From: a bacterium | GTDB lineage: Bacteria; Bdellovibrionota; FAC87; UBA2466 | Direction: 5' to 3' | Assembly: GCA_009927045.1 (NCBI GenBank) | Contig: RFNT01000151.1 | Location: forward strand, 1 to 32,889 | DNA length: 32,889 nt | Shown here: positions 10,970 to 29,376 of the stretch, piece by piece | Layout of the letters: each line of letters opens with the position of its first letter | How positions within the stretch are numbered: position 1 is the stretch's first letter | The notes under the pieces: generated by a model | What the model was told of the DNA's origin: nothing | The model's input: only the letters and a program-made list of their open reading frames with translations | Database searches by the model: none | Made by a program: the position numbers and the translations under genes

Positions 10970-12217
10970 ATGAATCGGGTTGTCGTCACAGGATTTGGGG
11001 CGATTACACCGGTCGGTCTCACCGCAAAGGCCAACTGGGACTCCCTGATGCAAATGAAATCAGGGGTAGCGTCCATCACTCTCTTTGATGCCAGCCAATA
11101 TTCCTCTCGAATTGCCGCTGAAGTGAAAGGCTTTGAGCCTGAAAAACACTTTCCTGTGAAAGAGCTGAAACGTATCGGAAGATTCATTCAGTTTGCTATG
11201 GTTGCAGGAACGGAGGCTATTGCACATTCCGGGATCGATTTAAAAGCAATGGATCGAACTCGAGCCGGAGCTTGTGTCGGAGTCGGCATAGGGGGATTGG
11301 CTGAAATCCAATCTGAGTATTGGACCGTTCGTGAAAAAGGTCCGAAGCGGGTCAGTCCCTTTTTTATCCCCTCAGTGATAGGGAATTTAGCGGCAGGGCA
11401 GCTCTCCATCAAATTTGGACTCCAAGGGCCTAATACCTGTATTACGACCGCCTGTTCTTCAAGCGCACACGCAGTGGGGGAATCTTTTCGATTGATTCAA
11501 AGAGGCGATCAGGACGTGATGGTTGCTGGAGGCGCTGAAGCTGTTGTTTGTGAGCTTGGGGTAGGTGGATTTTGTTCTATGCGGGCTTTGTCCGAGCGCA
11601 ATGACGCTCCAGAAAAAGCTTCGCGGCCGTTTGATAAGGATAGGGATGGATTTGTTATTGGAGAAGGTAGCGCCATTCTCATCTTGGAATCCTTAGAGCA
11701 CGCGCGGAAACGAGGTGCTAACATTTACGCTGAAGTTGTCGGCTATGGATTGAATGCGGATGCTTTTCATTTAACTTCCCCCAGCCCGAAGGGAGAAGGA
11801 GCCGCCCGATGCATGCGACTTGCTTTGAAAGACGCGCAGTTGAACCCGGAAAGCATTGATTATGTCAACGCTCACGGCACGTCTACCCCGGTCGGTGATG
11901 TGAATGAAACTTTGGCTATCAAAAGTGTTTTTGGAGATCATGCTTATCGATTGGCGGTGAGTTCAACTAAATCACTCACCGGACATCTTCTTGGAGCCGC
12001 TGGAGCTGTGGAAGCTCTTTATTGTATTCAGGCTTTGGGCGAACAAGTCGCTCCTGGAACCGCGAACTTGGATAATCCTAGCCCAGAATGTGATCTCAAC
12101 TTTGTGCCCCATCAACCGCAACCCAGGAAAATGGAGTATGTGCTCTCTAACTCTTTTGGTTTTGGAGGCACAAATGGGACTCTTATTTTTAAAAAGTTCC
12201 ATTCAACTGAAAAATAG
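10970..12217 (+). CDS. fabF: 3-oxoacyl-ACP synthase II (KAS II)
   Basis: A 415-residue condensing enzyme that elongates acyl-ACP with malonyl-ACP. The thiolase-fold active site is complete: Cys162 in TACSSSAHAVG, His in NAHGTSTPVGD near residue 304, and the Lys/His pair in STKSLTGHLLGAAGAVE near 335-340. The C-terminal NSFGFGGTNGTLIF is typical. The N-terminus MNRVVVTGFGAITPVG fits the usual start. The ribosome-binding site is weak, so translation may depend on coupling to acpP. rpiB starts nine bases after the stop. Confidence 0.97.
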   Translation: MNRVVVTGFGAITPVGLTAKANWDSLMQMKSGVASITLFDASQYSSRIAAEVKGFEPEKHFPVKELKRIGRFIQFAMVAGTEAIAHSGIDLKAMDRTRAGACVGVGIGGLAEIQSEYWTVREKGPKRVSPFFIPSVIGNLAAGQLSIKFGLQGPNTCITTACSSSAHAVGESFRLIQRGDQDVMVAGGAEAVVCELGVGGFCSMRALSERNDAPEKASRPFDKDRDGFVIGEGSAILILESLEHARKRGANIYAEVVGYGLNADAFHLTSPSPKGEGAARCMRLALKDAQLNPESIDYVNAHGTSTPVGDVNETLAIKSVFGDHAYRLAVSSTKSLTGHLLGAAGAVEALYCIQALGEQVAPGTANLDNPSPECDLNFVPHQPQPRKMEYVLSNSFGFGGTNGTLIFKKFHSTEK

Positions 12218-22409: not shown

Positions 22410-22880
22410 ATGGATAAAAGAAAATCTCCCGGTAAGGGCGGTAAAGAGCGTGTTATTGACTTAAATAGTTACCGGAAAAACAAAAATGAAGAGCGCAGGA
22501 GAGAGTACGAGAGAGTTCTCTTTAATCGTGTTCTGGGCGTTTACAGCTTTGCTGAGAAGAATGGTTTGACCCATGTAGAAGTGGTGGATGTGAGCTTTTC
22601 GGGATTACGCTTTCGGGAAGAGCATCCAGAAATGCCGTTTCAGATGGGACAAAAAATGGCCCTTCGGTTTTACTTTACTCCGAACACCTATTTGAGGGTG
22701 GTATTAGAAGTCAAGCGTACAATCCCTTTTGAGGAAAATGGACGGAGTGGCTTGGAATATGGTTGTGAAATCGATAAGGACACCAAGTCATTTGAAGTGA
22801 TCAATCAACTGGTTACTTTTATGTACAAATACGCTGAAGTAGCCTGCCAAGATGCGCATCCACCCATGATTTGGTTTTAA
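22410..22880 (+). CDS. PilZ-domain protein (probable cyclic-di-GMP receptor)
   Basis: A 156-residue cytoplasmic protein. A Lys/Arg-rich N-terminus (DKRKSPGKGGKERVIDLNSY) leads into a PilZ-like domain. RRREYERV gives an RxxxR-type site around residue 30, DVSFSGLRF matches the D/N-x-S-x-x-G motif near residue 65, and GLEYGCEI matches the later beta strand. These are the residues that bind cyclic-di-GMP in canonical PilZ proteins. The RxxxR lies slightly further from DVSFSG than usual, so binding should be checked. It follows the UDP-xylose genes, and a link to polysaccharide output is plausible but only inferred. Its stop shares TTAA with the stop of the convergent gene. Confidence 0.75.
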   Translation: MDKRKSPGKGGKERVIDLNSYRKNKNEERRREYERVLFNRVLGVYSFAEKNGLTHVEVVDVSFSGLRFREEHPEMPFQMGQKMALRFYFTPNTYLRVVLEVKRTIPFEENGRSGLEYGCEIDKDTKSFEVINQLVTFMYKYAEVACQDAHPPMIWF

Positions 22881-23431
22881 GAACTGGGGAGTTCTGGATC
22901 CCAAAATATTCTCTTCGTGAGGTCTAAATCCGAGCAATAGGGATAAAGGAAAAGGCCCAGTCGCTTGAAGTCCTCCACCGTTAAGCCTGCCTCTGGTAAA
23001 ACAACCTCAATACAGGATTCTGCAGTAACAGGAAAAGTCAGGATTCGTTTGCCAGGCTTTTTTTTGTGATTGTTCGTGGCTGGTTGTAAATGCCAACCGA
23101 AAGGGTCTGCGCTCCAAGCTTGATATCCACGCACTGCCATTTCCAAGGCCGATTGATAAGAGGCTCTTTGCGCTGGTGATAACTGGGGCAGGCGGTCTAA
23201 AATCATATCAATATGATTGAGAACCCAATCACAAGAGTCTTCATCCTCCATCAAAAGTGAAAAACAAGTCTCACACTGAGAACGAATGGCCGGAAAAAGT
23301 TCTGGAGGTGATACGTGATTTTTATAAATCAAATCCAAAAACTTAAGCACTTCCTCACTGTCCTTAATCAGCGAAAGCTGATTTCCTCCAGCGATTAATT
23401 TCATTTTTGATCTCAGACGAGAGCGTTTCAA
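22877..23431 (-). CDS. Unknown protein, last gene of the tetR-GDPD-HAD operon
   Basis: A 184-residue protein I do not recognise. It has a basic N-terminus (MKRSRLRSKMKLI), no signal peptide and no membrane span. A helical region over residues 22-95 contains CETCFSLLMEDEDSCDWVLNHID, with three Cys. A Lys-rich link (HKKKPGKR) near residue 122 is followed by a short C-terminal part. The CxxC pair near residue 53 could bind metal or be redox-active, but this is only a possibility. It starts in a four-base overlap with the HAD gene, so it is probably co-translated and may work with it. Confidence 0.6.
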   Translation of the reverse strand: MKRSRLRSKMKLIAGGNQLSLIKDSEEVLKFLDLIYKNHVSPPELFPAIRSQCETCFSLLMEDEDSCDWVLNHIDMILDRLPQLSPAQRASYQSALEMAVRGYQAWSADPFGWHLQPATNNHKKKPGKRILTFPVTAESCIEVVLPEAGLTVEDFKRLGLFLYPYCSDLDLTKRIFWDPELPSS

Positions 23432-24216
23432 GGGACTCTCCCCAGAATATGAGAAACCAACTCCTCGAAACCTGTCCCGCTTTCCTGAACGGTCATGAAT
23501 CGAGGTGGATGTTTGAGTTGCGGTAAAAAGTATTTCACGTTGGCGACTCCAACGCTATTAGGAAAATATTCAAAGAGGGGTTCGTCATTGGGGGAATCTC
23601 CAGAAAAAACAATGTTCTCTTTGTGGATTCCCAGATTAGAACCGAAACGATTGAGCCAGAATTCACACGCCGTTAATTTCGTATGGTGGCCCACCCAAAA
23701 ATTGATGTGGATGGAACTCAGTTTGGCGGTAACAGCCGAGTCCTTCTTTAAGAAATTCATCATCCAATGCACTTGATCAGGGGAGAGCAGAGGGGGCTCC
23801 TCATTAAAATCTATAGCAAAATCAAACAGGCGATAAGGTTGGTCGGTAGCCAGCTTGGCATCTGGAATCTGCTGTTGGATCTGATTAAATAATTGTGTGA
23901 GATGATTTTTCTGTGACTTGAGGTCATTTTGAGCTGCTAAGCAATGGGTGGTTATTCTTTTTCCTTCACGCCACATGATACCTGCCCCGTTTTCAAAAAT
24001 CATTGCAGAAAGAGGAAGTAATCGCATGAGGGTATCTGCCCATCCGGCCGGTCTGCCAGAGACAATAACGACTGGATATCCGTGATGATTCAAATCGTGG
24101 ATGGCCTGTAAGGTGCTCGGCATGATTTGAGAGTTTTTGGTGATGGTATCGTCCAGATCTGAAAACAAAGCCTTAATAGGTTTTCGAACTAATTGGGTCA
24201 ATGGAAGTGGCTTCAT
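23428..24216 (-). CDS. HAD-superfamily IIB (Cof-type) phosphatase
   Basis: A 262-residue HAD hydrolase. Motif I is FSDLDDT near residues 18-24, with Asp20 as nucleophile and Asp22 as acid/base. Motif II is VIVSGRP near 52, and motif IV is FSGDSPNDEPLFEYF near 208. A C2-type cap lies between motifs II and IV, as in Cof, sucrose-phosphatase and mannosyl-3-phosphoglycerate phosphatase enzymes. FENGAGIMW is close to the ENGA motif of those sugar-phosphatases. The substrate is not decided by sequence; a phosphorylated sugar or polyol is likely. It lies between GDPD and the unknown protein, with four-base overlaps on both sides. Confidence 0.85.
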   Translation of the reverse strand: MKPLPLTQLVRKPIKALFSDLDDTITKNSQIMPSTLQAIHDLNHHGYPVVIVSGRPAGWADTLMRLLPLSAMIFENGAGIMWREGKRITTHCLAAQNDLKSQKNHLTQLFNQIQQQIPDAKLATDQPYRLFDFAIDFNEEPPLLSPDQVHWMMNFLKKDSAVTAKLSSIHINFWVGHHTKLTACEFWLNRFGSNLGIHKENIVFSGDSPNDEPLFEYFPNSVGVANVKYFLPQLKHPPRFMTVQESGTGFEELVSHILGRVP

Positions 24217-25112
24217 TTGGTTTCCTCATTCAGAAATTGAATCAATCGTCTGGGATAGTCGGTGATGATGCCATCTACGCCCCATGCCACCGCTTGCTTC
24301 CATTCGTCTAATCGATTCAAGGTCCAGGGATGAATTAAAATTCCTAAGCGGTGACACTCTTGAATCAAGTCCGGGCTGAGTAAATGAAATGCAGGAGAGA
24401 TAATTTGGGCGCCCAGTTTTTTGGTTTCCTCACAGAGGGATAATTTTCCCGTTTCAAAAAGGGCTGATAGCTTCAGGTTAGGATCAAGAAGTTTTGCCTC
24501 TCGAAGAGTGGGGATGTCAAAGCTTTGGAAAACGACGTTTTCAGTGTAGTTGTGCTTTTTCAAGAGCGTCACTACAGTGCGGACAAAAGTGCTTTTTTCG
24601 GTGGAGTTCTTCAAACCCGCCATCTTGGCTTCGATGTTTAAATGGACTTTCTTTGGAGATTTTGATTTTGCCCAAATTAATACTTCCTCCAGAGTGAGCA
24701 GGCGTTGACCTGGGACGGACTTCTGGTCGGGAAACAGCGGATTAGGTACTGAGCCACAATCAAATTTTTTGAGTTGGTTTACGCTCAACGTTCGGATGGG
24801 CAATGACCGCTTTAAAGGACGCTGGTCGGGGCCGATGCAGAAGTCTACTGACACTGCAGGGTCATGGGAGACCACGGGGACATCTCCCTTCGCTAGGTTC
24901 AAGTCGAGTTCTACCCAATCGGCTCCGGACTCAACCGATTCTTCAAATGCACTGAGCGTATTTTCAGGATGAGTCCCTCGAGACCCTCTATGCCCGTGTA
25001 CTTGGGGGCGCAACTTTTTCGGTTCTTTGGAAGTAGCTGGAGCGGGAGTCAGAGACTGGCAACCCCACAGAAAAAATACGATTGTGCTGATGATGGAAAA
25101 GTACGAGTTCAA
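24213..25112 (-). CDS. Glycerophosphodiester phosphodiesterase lipoprotein (GDPD)
   Basis: A TIM-barrel phosphodiesterase that cleaves glycerophosphodiesters from phospholipid turnover to sn-glycerol-3-phosphate and an alcohol. The core reads VHGHRGSRGTHPENTLSAF, the H-R-x(n)-E-N-T active site; Glu-x-Asp in VELDLN and VVSHDP follow, and the C-terminus has GILIHPWTLN and GVDGIITDYP. The frame is open from 25202, but the TTG at 25110-25112 overlaps the TetR stop as TTGA and puts a clean lipoprotein signal (NSYFSIISTIVFFLWGC, Cys18) at the start, so I choose it. The longer start would give a charged 30-residue extension inside tetR. The mature enzyme should be membrane-anchored, facing the periplasm. 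Confidence 0.87.
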   Translation of the reverse strand: MNSYFSIISTIVFFLWGCQSLTPAPATSKEPKKLRPQVHGHRGSRGTHPENTLSAFEESVESGADWVELDLNLAKGDVPVVSHDPAVSVDFCIGPDQRPLKRSLPIRTLSVNQLKKFDCGSVPNPLFPDQKSVPGQRLLTLEEVLIWAKSKSPKKVHLNIEAKMAGLKNSTEKSTFVRTVVTLLKKHNYTENVVFQSFDIPTLREAKLLDPNLKLSALFETGKLSLCEETKKLGAQIISPAFHLLSPDLIQECHRLGILIHPWTLNRLDEWKQAVAWGVDGIITDYPRRLIQFLNEETK

Positions 25113-25828
25113 GTAAGGCCCATTGAAGAAGCTTCGCGGAGCGATTTTTGAAATGTTTTCGATCCTTCCCGTGGCTCTACGGGAAGTTTTCCGACCCCAC
25201 ACAGAATCTGCTCAATCATATCCTTGATAAAGACATCTTTTTGAAAGGCAAAGAGATGTCCTCGTCCAGCAGACTCGAATAACTTATGACATCCTAATAA
25301 AAGGCCCCATAAGAGGAAGGTGGTTTGAAGAGCTGCATCTTCTTCCTCTGCGCGAAAGTAGGGCGATTGCTGAATGAAGTTTTTTATTCTGTCTAAACTA
25401 GCCAATGTAACGCTCATCAAGCGCGTGAGGGTCGTTGCTTGAATCTCAACCTCTTTCATTCCTTTGTAGGAATACAGGAGCAAATCAAAGTACTCTCCGT
25501 AAGGGCCATAAAATGCGAAAAACGAGTGAGCAATTTCAACCAAACATTCTCGGACTTGGGTTTTGTTTTTATGGTTTTTTGCCTTTTTAAGAAGCGCCTC
25601 AAGCCGTTTATCGAACTGTTCCGCCCCTTTGAGGGCTAGCGAAGCAAAAATATCCTCTTTGGATTGAAAATAGCGATAAATCAGACCAACGCTGATTTCC
25701 GCTTCCTGTGCCACATCCTGCAGGGGAGTATTCAAAAAGCCTTTTCTTTCAAATAGCTGCCGAGCAGCTTCGAGAATATCATTCGTGCGCTGCCGTTTTT
25801 CGCGCTCTTTACGTTCTTTGATGCCCAT
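25109..25828 (-). CDS. TetR-family transcriptional regulator
   Basis: A 239-residue regulator with an N-terminal helix-turn-helix of the TetR/AcrR type: DILEAARQLFERKGFLNTPLQDVAQEAEISVGLIYRYFQSKEDIF (residues 18-62). The C-terminal ligand domain (from about residue 80) is helical and of unknown specificity. It heads a minus-strand operon with GDPD, HAD and the unknown gene. It starts 190 bases from the divergent spt gene. TetR proteins often repress their own and the divergent gene, so control of both the ceramide and the GDPD operons is a reasonable inference. A short palindrome at 25902-25913 (CAAGACTTCTTG) is one candidate site, weak on its own. Confidence 0.88.
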   Translation of the reverse strand: MGIKERKEREKRQRTNDILEAARQLFERKGFLNTPLQDVAQEAEISVGLIYRYFQSKEDIFASLALKGAEQFDKRLEALLKKAKNHKNKTQVRECLVEIAHSFFAFYGPYGEYFDLLLYSYKGMKEVEIQATTLTRLMSVTLASLDRIKNFIQQSPYFRAEEEDAALQTTFLLWGLLLGCHKLFESAGRGHLFAFQKDVFIKDMIEQILCGVGKLPVEPREGSKTFQKSLREASSMGLT

Positions 25829-25952
25829 TTTTTTCCTCGCTTACCTGCGCGATTTTGTGATAAATCGGCCCCTCAGTCTCGTACAGGAGTGGGCTCCCTG
25901 GCAAGACTTCTTGTAGTGGGCAAAAAAAAATGAACGGCATTCAAAAAGAAAA

Positions 25953-25958
25953 TATGAT
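25953..25958 (+). promoter_or_regulatory. Candidate -10 element of the spt operon
   Basis: TATGAT, five of six consensus bases, about 60 bases before the chosen spt start. The matching -35 place (ATGAAC) fits poorly. A second TTGACT further down (25974-25979) has no good -10 partner. This call is tentative. Confidence 0.3.
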
Positions 25959-26019
25959 TCAATAAGCAGTTGAATTGACTCGGGTTTTCTTTTGGACGAT
26001 TCTAGACAAGGTAGAGGGA

Positions 26020-27369
26020 ATGAAAGAGTTGGAAATGACAGGATCTAAAGACATTTTTCAGAAATGTGCCTCTTTTGAAGAAGCTAATCGTGTGCGTCAA
26101 TTAGGCGTTTATCCCTATTTCCGATCCATTGAGGAAACCAAGGGCAATGAAGTGATTTGTAATGGCCAAACTAAGATCATGATTGGGTCTAATAACTATC
26201 TTGGACTCGCCCAAGATCCTCGAGTGATTGAAGCTGCCTGTGAAGCCGCCAGGAAATATGGCTCTGGTTGCACGGGGTCTCGTTTTCTGAATGGTAATAT
26301 TCAACTGCATGAACAGCTTGAAGCAGAATTGGCTGAATTTTTACAAAAAGAAGCAGTTCTCTTGTTTTCTACGGGCTTCTTTGTGAATCAAGGGGTGTTA
26401 GCCACCTTATTAGAAGACGGCGATGCTATTTTATGCGACCGGGAAAACCACGCCAGTATTTTAGATGGCTGTAAGCAGTCAGCAGCCAAGACGATTCCAT
26501 TTGCGCATAATTCAGCTGAGGCACTCAGGCGCCGCCTGGAACGGTTACCAGAAACAGCTGGTAAACTCCTGATAGTAGATGGTGTGTTTAGCATGTCAGG
26601 AGATATTGTGGATTTGCCTGCCATGACCAAGGTGGCGAAGGAGTATGGCTGTAGGATTTATGTGGATGAAGCGCATGCTCTTGGGGTTTTGGGGCCTCGA
26701 GGTGAAGGAACCGTACATCATTTTGGAATGAATCAAGATGTAGATCTGGTCATGGGGACATTCTCCAAAAGTTTGGGGTCAATGGGAGGGTTCATTGCTG
26801 GGCCCGAATACGTCGTTGATTACTTAAAACACAAAGCACGATGCTTCATGTTCACTGCTTCTTTAGCGCCTGCAGTGGCCGGCGGCGTATTAAAAGCACT
26901 TCAGATCCTGAAAAAAGAGCCAGAACTCATGGAAGGATTGTGGAAAAACACCCGCAAGATGCATAAAGGATTCAAGGAGCTGGGCTTCCAAATTGGCACG
27001 ACTCAAACTCCGATTGTTCCTATTGTGATTGGGAGCGAAGTTAAGGCTTTCATGTTCGCCCAAAAATTGTTCGAAGCGGGCATCTTCGCTACTCCTGCAG
27101 TCTTCCCAGCGGTTCGTTACGGCGAAGCAATCATTAGAACCAGCTACATGTCGACCCATACCGATCAGGAATTAGATTATGTGTTAGAGACTTTTGCTCG
27201 CCTCGGTCGAGAATTGGGAGTATTTGAAGAAGCTGCATATACGGGGGGCACTAAAAAGAATGGTTACGATTTCAGCAGCAACAACGCCGAAATTATTAAA
27301 AATCTTCGAAAATCTTCCGGAGATGCTGCATCCGAATCTGCAGCATCTGGTACCCCCATTCCCCGGTAG
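26020..27369 (+). CDS. spt: Serine palmitoyltransferase (alpha-oxoamine synthase)
   Basis: A PLP enzyme of the alpha-oxoamine synthase family, which condenses serine with an acyl-thioester to 3-ketosphinganine. From the ATG at 26020 (AAGG eight bases before; an earlier TTG at 25975 is less likely) it has IMIGSNNYLGLAQDPRV and GTGSR-like GCTGSRFLNG. It also has His144 in CDRENHASILDG, Asp216/His219 in VDEAHALGVLG, and PLP-Lys250 in GTFSKSLGSMGGFIAG. The latter, with KHKARCFMFTASLAP, resembles SPT more than BioF or KBL. The context (ceramide synthase and ceramide reductase follow) decides. Enzymes of this family usually end near RLGRELGVF. Here a 45-residue low-complexity tail (to PIPR) overlaps the next gene by 110 bases, perhaps through a lost G near 27215-27217. 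Confidence 0.87.
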   Translation: MKELEMTGSKDIFQKCASFEEANRVRQLGVYPYFRSIEETKGNEVICNGQTKIMIGSNNYLGLAQDPRVIEAACEAARKYGSGCTGSRFLNGNIQLHEQLEAELAEFLQKEAVLLFSTGFFVNQGVLATLLEDGDAILCDRENHASILDGCKQSAAKTIPFAHNSAEALRRRLERLPETAGKLLIVDGVFSMSGDIVDLPAMTKVAKEYGCRIYVDEAHALGVLGPRGEGTVHHFGMNQDVDLVMGTFSKSLGSMGGFIAGPEYVVDYLKHKARCFMFTASLAPAVAGGVLKALQILKKEPELMEGLWKNTRKMHKGFKELGFQIGTTQTPIVPIVIGSEVKAFMFAQKLFEAGIFATPAVFPAVRYGEAIIRTSYMSTHTDQELDYVLETFARLGRELGVFEEAAYTGGTKKNGYDFSSNNAEIIKNLRKSSGDAASESAASGTPIPR

Positions 27370-28375
27370 CATTTCAAAACTCATCGGTACGCAATCTCCA
27401 CTGGTAAGAGCCGGCGGAAAAATACTCCCTTTGATAGCTTTTCAGGGACAGCGGCCGGTGGGGCGCATTGCCGCCATTTTGAATCGTGCCCACAATGAAT
27501 ATTATCAAGACCGGACCGGGTTTTTTGGGTTTTTTGATTTCGTTCAGGATGAGAAAGTAGCCGAGGCTCTGTTGAAAGAAGCTGAGGCTCAGTTGCTGAG
27601 CTGGGGATGTGGCATTCTCCGAGGGCCTTATAGTCCGTCAGTAAATGACGAATGCGGACTCCTTGTTGAGGGGTTTGATTCCGCGCCCATGATCCTCATG
27701 CCGTTTAACCCAGATTATTATCAAGCAATTTATTCACGACTGGGCCTGAATAAGGTTCGTGATTTGTATGCGTACTACTTAACTTCTGACTTGGTAGTTC
27801 CAGAAAAGATCAAGAAAGTCGTCGAACGTGTGAAAAAAAGAAGCGGCGTCTCTTTTCGCAATATTGACTTAAAAAACCTTGATGCGGAACTGCGGGTTAT
27901 CCAGGAGCTCTATAACGGGACTCTAAAACGGAATTGGGGTTTCGTTCCCATTAGTTTTGAGGAGCTAAAATTTGCAAGTGAGGATTTAAAACAAATTATA
28001 AAACCGGACTTGGTTATGATTGCAGAAAAAGAAGGGGTTCCGGTTGGATTTTCCATGCTTTTACCCAACATGAACGAATTCATGTTGAAGTCAAAAAAAC
28101 ACTCCGGACTGCTACGCGTTCTGAATTTTGTATGGCAATTAAAGACCCGAACCCCCAGCGAAGCCCGCTTAGCAGTGCTTGGGGTGAAACCGGAATTTGA
28201 GAACGCAGGAATTCCCGCCGTTTTTTATTGGGAAAGTATTCAAAGAGGGAGAAAGAGTTTTAAAGGAGGAGAGCTTTCCTGGATCGAGGAGAGTAATATT
28301 CCTATGATGAGAAGTTTAGAGCTCATGGGAGCAAAAAAATATAAAACTTATTCTATTTTTGAGAAGCCCATATGA
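27260..28375 (+). CDS. bcerS: Bacterial ceramide synthase (GNAT-type acyltransferase, bCerS)
   Basis: A 371-residue cytoplasmic protein with a GNAT-like fold. PVGRIAAILNRAHNEYYQDRTGFFGFFDF near residue 70 and ILRGPYSPSVNDECGLLVEGFD near 125, followed by MPFNPDYY and DLYAYYL, are the conserved stretches of the large GNAT-like family that includes the Caulobacter ceramide synthase. That enzyme N-acylates 3-ketosphinganine and is unrelated to eukaryotic CerS. The frame opens at 27194. The ATG at 27260 puts the family-like N-terminus (LLKIFENLPEMLHPNLQHLVPP) right after the start. The stop overlaps cerR by four bases. Function is assigned from family resemblance and position between spt and cerR. 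The acyl donor is unknown. Confidence 0.82.
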   Translation: MVTISAATTPKLLKIFENLPEMLHPNLQHLVPPFPGSISKLIGTQSPLVRAGGKILPLIAFQGQRPVGRIAAILNRAHNEYYQDRTGFFGFFDFVQDEKVAEALLKEAEAQLLSWGCGILRGPYSPSVNDECGLLVEGFDSAPMILMPFNPDYYQAIYSRLGLNKVRDLYAYYLTSDLVVPEKIKKVVERVKKRSGVSFRNIDLKNLDAELRVIQELYNGTLKRNWGFVPISFEELKFASEDLKQIIKPDLVMIAEKEGVPVGFSMLLPNMNEFMLKSKKHSGLLRVLNFVWQLKTRTPSEARLAVLGVKPEFENAGIPAVFYWESIQRGRKSFKGGELSWIEESNIPMMRSLELMGAKKYKTYSIFEKPI

Positions 28376-29376
28376 AAGTCATGTTGACTGGTGCCAGCGG
28401 GTTTGTGGGGCGCAATCTGTTTATATCGCTACTAACAGATCCGCGGGTTCAAAAGATTGTTTTGCCGGTGAGAGAACCTCGAAAGTTAACAAAGCAGTGG
28501 GAGCAAGATGGGATTCGGGTTTCAGAGAATAAAGTAGAAGTGATTGAGACCGCGGCTCCCGAATGGCATGGTTTAGGATCTCAAGCAGTTGATGTTTTGA
28601 TTCACTCTGCCGGAATTTTGTTTGCCCGTGCCCAAAAAGATTTTTTTGATACGAATGTGAAGGGAACTCTAAACTTACTGAAGCAGGTCAAGTACGATCG
28701 GGCAGTTGTTTTGTCTTCGCAGGCGGCCAGCGGTCCATGCCAAGCTGGACAAAACACCAAGACTGAAAACGATGTTCCTGAACCGATCACTTGGTATGGG
28801 CGGTCCAAGCTGGAAATGGAACGCCTGGTGCAGGAACAGTTAGGTGACAAAAATATTATCTGTATTCGGCCTCCGATCATTTTAGGGGCGCGAGATACAG
28901 CTACTTTACCCCTTTTTAAGATGGTTAAAGGACGGGTTCTGTTCAAGCCTGGATTGAAGCCAAAATATTACAGCTATATTGCGGTAAAGGATTTAGTCAG
29001 AGCGATTGAGCAGGTGATATGGGTGTCAAATCCTCTGAAGGCATTCCAACAGAAAGTTTATTTTGTAGCTTCTGAGGAAGTCATCACGGATGAAACCCTG
29101 ATTGTCACAGCTGCGGCAGCTGCAAAAAAACGGGGCGTCTTGTTGAAGATTCCGCAGCCCCTTTTGAAGGGAATCGTAAAAGTAGTGGATGCCGTCCCTG
29201 CATGGAGAGAAGCGATTCCCTCCTTGTCGAGCGATCGTGCTCAAGAGATTTGGCCTGACCGATGGGTGGTTTCATCCCATAAGTTTCAACAAATGTTTGA
29301 ATGGCAGGCGAAATGTCCGCTATTAGAGACTCTTAAGGAAACCCATGATTGGTATGTTCGGAATGGAGATCTTTAA
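28372..29376 (+). CDS. cerR: Ceramide reductase, extended SDR (CerR-like)
   Basis: A 334-residue NAD(P)-dependent epimerase/reductase of the extended SDR group. It has the nucleotide-binding TGASGFVGRNLF at residues 6-17, VLIHSAGILFARA, the catalytic Ser in VLSSQAASGP, and YGRSKLEMERLV with Tyr and Lys. The SSQAASGP and YGRSKLE forms are those of the CerR relatives seen beside spt in Caulobacter-type sphingolipid loci. There the enzyme reduces 3-ketoceramide to dihydroceramide after N-acylation. Gene order here (spt, bcerS, cerR) follows that reaction order, and the start overlaps bcerS by four bases. Other sugar-epimerase activities cannot be excluded from sequence alone. Confidence 0.8.
   Translation: MKVMLTGASGFVGRNLFISLLTDPRVQKIVLPVREPRKLTKQWEQDGIRVSENKVEVIETAAPEWHGLGSQAVDVLIHSAGILFARAQKDFFDTNVKGTLNLLKQVKYDRAVVLSSQAASGPCQAGQNTKTENDVPEPITWYGRSKLEMERLVQEQLGDKNIICIRPPIILGARDTATLPLFKMVKGRVLFKPGLKPKYYSYIAVKDLVRAIEQVIWVSNPLKAFQQKVYFVASEEVITDETLIVTAAAAAKKRGVLLKIPQPLLKGIVKVVDAVPAWREAIPSLSSDRAQEIWPDRWVVSSHKFQQMFEWQAKCPLLETLKETHDWYVRNGDL

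Follow-up and report, generated by a model that had tools for sequence, protein, structure and literature searches.

The stretch of DNA considered here (hereafter the window) is the 32,889-nucleotide contig RFNT01000151.1 from a 2.39-Mb Bdellovibrionota draft genome (assembly GCA_009927045.1). It contains a probable operon for the synthesis of ceramide, the sphingolipid backbone, consisting of spt, bcerS and cerR on the plus strand. A second gene set runs divergently on the minus strand and is formed by a TetR regulator, a GDPD-family lipoprotein, a HAD phosphatase and a protein without a family assignment. This seven-gene layout had been proposed from the sequence alone (the original prediction) and is borne out: all frames are open, the arrangement is as claimed, and the divergent gap of 191 bp (25829–26019) is exact. 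The prediction did not include the spt/bcerS overlap, the operator-like palindromes in this gap or a VanY-type gene directly behind cerR. The same neighbourhood is repeated in related genomes, where most of the proteins share 45–90% identity, and thus cannot be attributed to chance. Genomes of the phylum used for comparison carry G-codes, and the loci compared carry L-codes. The features of the operon and its control region are:

26020–27369, plus strand: spt, a serine palmitoyltransferase (SPT)-type alpha-oxoamine synthase of 449 aa with a clade-specific C-terminal tail (about residues 405–449)
27260–28375, plus strand: bcerS, a bacterial ceramide synthase-type N-acyltransferase of 371 aa with a tandem GNAT fold
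27260–27369, plus strand: out-of-phase overlap of spt and bcerS, 110 nt, in which NGYDFS of Spt and MVTIS of bCerS share bases
28372–29376, plus strand: cerR, an extended short-chain dehydrogenase/reductase (SDR; TGASGFVG, YGRSK), probable 3-oxo-ceramide reductase
25109–25828, minus strand: TetR-family regulator (TetR_N), which probably regulates the spt operon
25931–25943: operator-like palindrome TGAACGGCATTCA (consensus TGAAYGSCRTTCA), from phylogenetic footprinting
25957–25975: second operator-like box ATTCAA-N7-TTGAAT extending into the −35 box, likewise from footprinting
25975–26003, plus strand: probable spt promoter, with −35 TTGACT (25975–25980), a 17-nt spacer and −10 GATTCT (25998–26003)

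The three enzymes

Spt has the aminotransferase I/II fold according to Pfam. Its best matches in the PDB (phmmer) are the SPT structures of Sphingobacterium multivorum (3a2b, 8guh), with 406 bits, an E-value of about 1e-120 and 386 columns aligned without a gap. The next groups reach about 300 bits or lower; KBL is found at about 250–260 and BioF at about 200 or less, so the enzyme is closer to SPT than to KBL, BioF or ALAS. Because the alignment is gap-free, residue n of the S. multivorum enzyme corresponds to residue n+6 here. The nine active-site residues of that enzyme that were checked (N52, S81, H138, D210, A212, H213, T241, K244 and M271; PMC10196870) are all conserved, including the pyridoxal phosphate-binding lysine, the stacking histidine and the residues contacting serine. 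The closest solved structure thus has the same active site, but it lacks the C-terminal tail. This tail, FxDxAY...[GIV][YF]DF, is limited among the aligned sequences to the clade discussed here and to related Verrucomicrobiota.

A DEAH motif in place of DDAH was also considered as an argument against an SPT and was dropped. Characterised SPTs carry DEAH as well.

The second enzyme, bCerS, has no sequence match in Pfam, NCBIfam or the PDB. Its AlphaFold model (AF2, 30 aligned sequences; predicted local distance difference test score, pLDDT, 89.9) matches the tandem GNATs MAB_4324 and MshD (mycothiol synthase), with a Foldseek E-value of 1.7e-14. Over its full length, bCerS is homologous to YghO of Escherichia coli (31.4% identity over 371 aa, E about 4e-43); the yghO gene is listed together with Caulobacter CC_1154 (bCerS) for the N-acyltransferase step in making dihydroceramide (PMC9386255). 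Homologues detected by tblastn lie on plasmids of E. coli (YghO), Pseudomonas, Rubrobacter, Aureispira, Sphingomonas, Roseomonas and Acidisoma. The adjoining genes match Spt and CerR in E. coli, P. veronii, Aureispira and Rubrobacter, and only the alpha-oxoamine synthase is matched in Acidisoma; the synthase beside YghO in E. coli scores above an NCBI SPT equivalog cut-off. Among 80 bCerS loci from many phyla, spt adjoins in most and cerR too in many. Within Bdellovibrionota, bCerS homologues are present in 120 of 192 genomes. In a broad 21-row alignment of bCerS, conservation was nowhere high enough to allow a contig scan. Homology, fold and neighbours all place the 371-residue protein with bCerS, as had been predicted.

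CerR is recognised by Pfam as Epimerase (9.6e-18) and NAD_binding_4 (2e-15) and carries the NAD(P)-binding motif TGASGFVG and the YxxxK motif (YGRSK) of an extended SDR; its homologues adjoin spt and bcerS in many phyla. With an SPT-like synthase, a member of the YghO family and this reductase, the core of ceramide synthesis is supported as first described.

Control region and proposed pathway

The divergent regulator (TetR_N, 7.5e-17) has close orthologues (63–78% identity) in 12 genomes, all of which bear the operon, and it lies beside spt wherever the contig permits a view; in G068, a contig end hides this position. TetR and the operonic spt are both missing in G064 and G072, which retain bcerS and cerR. 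An alignment of ten divergent gaps has 34 invariant intergenic columns, 30 of which fall within 25929–25988. They spell TGAA-N5-TTCA, a palindrome invariant in 10/10 gaps, followed by an A run and then TTCAATAA...TTGAATTGAC, the second arm of which merges into the −35 TTGACT.

The consensus TGAAYGSCRTTCA occurs in a single copy in the whole 2.39-Mb genome (G000). It is also found once, and at the same place, in the two other members of the genus (G027 and G034), and it does not occur in the intergenic regions of G064 and G072. Extra copies elsewhere are found in several genomes outside the genus, and G019 and G060 carry the variant TGAAN5TTCA at the site. A conserved single-copy palindrome that is absent where spt and TetR were lost is the pattern expected of a local repressor. 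A consensus promoter scan of the gap found nothing, and the promoter call rests on conservation: TTGAC and a GANNNT-like hexamer are spaced about 17 nt apart in most relatives. The palindrome and the second box on the −35 likely form an operator-promoter. The footprint and the joint loss with spt agree with the predicted role of TetR as regulator; it is tied to the operonic spt and belongs to the ceramide operon, probably as its repressor. A non-exhaustive keyword search of the literature retrieved no case of an spt operon in bacteria regulated by a TetR protein.

The three genes are best read as a pathway for ceramide synthesis in which Spt, bCerS and CerR act in this order. Spt would join serine and a long-chain acyl thioester in a condensation that yields 3-oxosphinganine. 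As a tandem-GNAT N-acyltransferase, bCerS would then acylate the amine, and dihydroceramide would arise when CerR reduces the 3-oxo group. By binding the palindrome and the box on the −35, the TetR repressor would probably keep the spt promoter blocked; its release would be brought about by a lipid ligand, perhaps acyl-CoA or a long-chain base. Ribosomes ending spt would probably restart on bcerS within the 110-nt overlap and so couple the first two enzymes. We estimate the probability that Spt, bCerS, CerR and TetR constitute such a self-contained ceramide operon with its own switch at roughly 80%.

Several points weigh against it. Spt falls under all three curated NCBI SPT equivalog cut-offs, which are curation thresholds and not a biochemical definition (495, 395 and 331 bits against 640, 500 and 670). 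It also falls under those for KBL and BioF; having scored below the three SPT models, it is placed in a subgroup without a curated model. The family membership of bCerS is argued via YghO and synteny, not via a direct comparison with Caulobacter. The Rossmann motif of CerR begins at residue 6 and leaves no room for a signal peptide, so the protein appears to be without the N-terminal signal that the Caulobacter CerR, a periplasmic protein (PMC11087976), would lead one to expect. Also not seen beside the operon were a dedicated acyl carrier protein (ACP) and synthetase, which Caulobacter needs and E. coli likewise has (PMC9386255). On the regulatory side, the losses of spt and TetR are based on two draft genomes, and one alignment served both to find the motif and to show its conservation.

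The S. multivorum SPT is described as palmitoyl-CoA-dependent (PMC10196870). Because this is the closest solved enzyme and no ACP or synthetase gene lies beside the operon, acyl-CoA or a housekeeping acyl-ACP is the likely acyl donor. A Pfam DAGK_cat search of the same genome for a CpgB-like ceramide kinase gave no match over the cut-off.

The same chemistry with another amino acid would yield a product with a different head group, namely a 1-deoxyceramide from alanine or glycine or a sulfonolipid from cysteate. The sub-threshold scores of Spt would fit this alternative, as would two positions near the active site at which it differs from the S. multivorum enzyme (A79 to T85 and S53 to N59). 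Moreover, that enzyme also uses alanine and glycine, albeit with much lower efficiency (PMC10196870). However, the residues contacting L-serine are retained, and the solved cysteate C-fatty acyltransferase reaches only 245 bits against 406 for SPT. We therefore regard a product other than ceramide as unlikely.

The proposed ceramide operon resembles known systems in part. The Caulobacter crescentus pathway (spt, bcerS/CC_1154, cerR; PMC11087976, PMC9386255) draws on the same three families of enzymes, which presumably act in the same order, but its genes are part of a larger cluster that includes a dedicated ACP and an acyl-ACP synthetase, and its CerR is periplasmic; here, three contiguous genes are accompanied by a divergent TetR. 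The yghO locus of BL21-type E. coli (plasmid record NZ_MG591698) also unites homologues of the synthase, reductase and N-acyltransferase (35.5%, 22% and 31% identity, respectively), but in another order and strand arrangement and together with an ACP and a fatty acyl-AMP ligase. A plasmid cluster of Rubrobacter radiotolerans shares gene order and strand; it differs in its identities of 48/32/27%, in having no adjoining TetR and in overlaps of a few bases at most. The nearest relatives outside the order are operons of Verrucomicrobiota with spt, bcerS and in part cerR (L076, L077, L078, L082, L091, L092). Their Spt proteins are 62–68% identical and both order and overlap are kept, but no TetR, HAD, GDPD or 184-aa gene was detected beside them. 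The enzymes are thus of known kinds; what is new is the probable dedicated TetR switch, the interlocking of spt with bcerS and the transfer of the operon between phyla.

The overlap of spt and bcerS

The start of bcerS is firm, since in G019 and other Bdellovibrionota no other start codon lies between the homologous codon and the preceding stop. The Spt frame continues for 110 nt past this start. An overlap is kept in the compared genomes of two sister families, f1 and f2 (roughly 50–130 nt), and in the related Verrucomicrobiota (at least about 50–110 nt). In most other Bdellovibrionota checked, spt and bcerS abut or lie apart; L112 has a short overlap of 23 nt.

Third bases were compared at 51 bCerS residues that are both invariant and degenerate across 12 genomes. 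The third base is invariant at V2 and T3 only (2/51) and is shared by 11/12 genomes at I4. All three sites lie within the overlap, where they encode Y, D and F of GYDF in Spt. If all 51 sites are assumed to be equivalent, the probability that the three best-conserved third bases would all be located there is about 5e-5. Dual coding is the simplest reading that this result suggests, and a constraint on translation initiation is its main alternative.

According to that alternative, the overlap is incidental: the Spt tail would be a neutral read-through, and the invariant bases would reflect selection on the bcerS translation start instead of on Spt. Synonymous sites can indeed be constrained in regions of translation start, the length of the Spt end differs among genomes, and the tail past residue 412 is disordered in the predicted structure, with a pLDDT below 50. 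Nevertheless, the invariant bases preserve GYDF in Spt (VFDF or IFDF in Verrucomicrobiota) despite differing DNA around them, and the overlap has survived both deep divergence and a transfer from one phylum to another. An incidental overlap is quite possible, at somewhat less than even odds. No docking site for the disordered tail was seen in the predicted Spt structure; given the low predicted confidence, the tail, if functional, may be a short linear motif or a flexible extension.

In its fullest form, the dual-coding proposal holds that spt and bcerS truly overlap, with the same bases selected in both frames (GYDF of Spt, MVTI of bCerS), and that this couples the enzymes in one lineage of Bdellovibrionota and in the Verrucomicrobiota sharing its operon. 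It further holds that a dedicated TetR sensor with a single operator governs the entry into sphingolipid synthesis in Bdellovibrionota. We put this combination forward tentatively, with less than even confidence.

Spread of the cassette and neighbouring genes

Separate trees of Spt, bCerS and CerR each unite families f1 and f2 with Verrucomicrobiota (Shimodaira–Hasegawa-like approximate likelihood ratio test, SH-aLRT, 100), and the next branch in the Spt and CerR trees consists of other Bdellovibrionota. With the three proteins concatenated, holding Bdellovibrionota together is rejected (approximately unbiased test, p-AU 6.6e-6) and Verrucomicrobiota form one clade (100/98); a clade of f1 and f2 is not rejected (p 0.18). 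The cassette has therefore moved between the two phyla. Transfer from Bdellovibrionota to Verrucomicrobiota appears to be the more economical direction, as judged from a shallow sample in which Verrucomicrobiota were chosen by closeness to the query only.

Individual loci depart from the common arrangement. G064 (L045, L196) and G072 (L044, L195), which represent two genera of the same family, carry elsewhere a different alpha-oxoamine synthase (39–41% identity to Spt) beside cyclopropane-fatty-acid-synthase-like and fatty acyl-AMP ligase-like genes; a replacement for the lost Spt is possible. In Verrucomicrobiota, L078 has an aldo/keto-reductase-like open reading frame (11086–12114; family judged by eye) in the place of cerR, overlapping the end of bcerS. 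L104 encodes a bCerS (42%, E 1e-100), and neither spt nor cerR was matched in the 10 kb flanking it on each side.

The remaining genes of the neighbourhood in the window are:

24213–25202, minus strand: open reading frame of the GDPD-family lipoprotein, with candidate starts at GTG 25202 (overlapping tetR) or TTG near 25116
23428–24216, minus strand: HAD-IIB phosphatase (TIGR01484 above cut-off; Pfam HAD Hydrolase_3)
22877–23431, minus strand: 184-aa protein outside Pfam and NCBIfam models
29378 (probable start)–30055, plus strand: VanY-type D,D-carboxypeptidase (Pfam VanY 1.3e-28), possible fourth operon gene

Overlaps of 4 nt occur between the 184-aa and HAD genes, between HAD and GDPD, and between bcerS and cerR; those of spt/bcerS and TetR/GDPD are longer. 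Together, they are consistent with two operons. The layout common to families f1 and f2 comprises ugd, an epimerase gene and pilZ, then unknown-HAD-(GDPD)-TetR divergent from spt-bcerS-cerR-(vanY). The PilZ-domain gene (22410–22880) adjoins the 184-aa gene and is highly conserved (62–87%) and syntenic within the family. The VanY-type gene begins 2 nt past the cerR stop; it is close behind cerR in two genera and elsewhere lies 1.4 kb off or was not found. It is possibly a fourth gene of the operon, which would tie the lipid operon to the cell wall.

An earlier view regarded the minus-strand genes as a module for ceramide head groups or turnover under the same regulator. The 4-nt overlaps suggest their co-transcription, and where relatives have kept the neighbourhood intact, HAD nearly always adjoins TetR or GDPD. 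Against this, HAD is phylum-wide and independent of bCerS, with orthologues in 111/192 genomes, namely 66/120 with bCerS and 45/72 without (Fisher p 0.37). GDPD (Pfam GDPD 3.8e-39) is not part of the set in the whole of genus g2 or in G056 and the other family, and the 184-aa gene, present in 16/192 genomes, was undetected in G046 and is located on a different contig in G051 and in G056. All three remain in place in one genome lacking spt and TetR, and spt has none of the minus-strand genes next to it in the copies from Verrucomicrobiota or from the other phyla. Of the four-gene partnership, the tie between TetR and spt stands and those of the other three genes do not, which makes a head-group module improbable. 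GDPD, HAD and the 184-aa gene are better described as long-standing neighbours, for which no link to lipid head groups was found. In G046 (L197, 2305–4419), GDPD and HAD are separated by an inserted open reading frame of 704 aa whose N-terminus is signal-like.

Little is known about the regulation of bacterial sphingolipid synthesis, and the locus offers a regulator together with a probable operator and promoter defined to the base. With its overlap, it is also a metabolic operon in which dual coding can be put to a statistical test. That the complete cassette has passed from one phylum to another suggests that ceramide synthesis may be handed on by as few as three contiguous genes.

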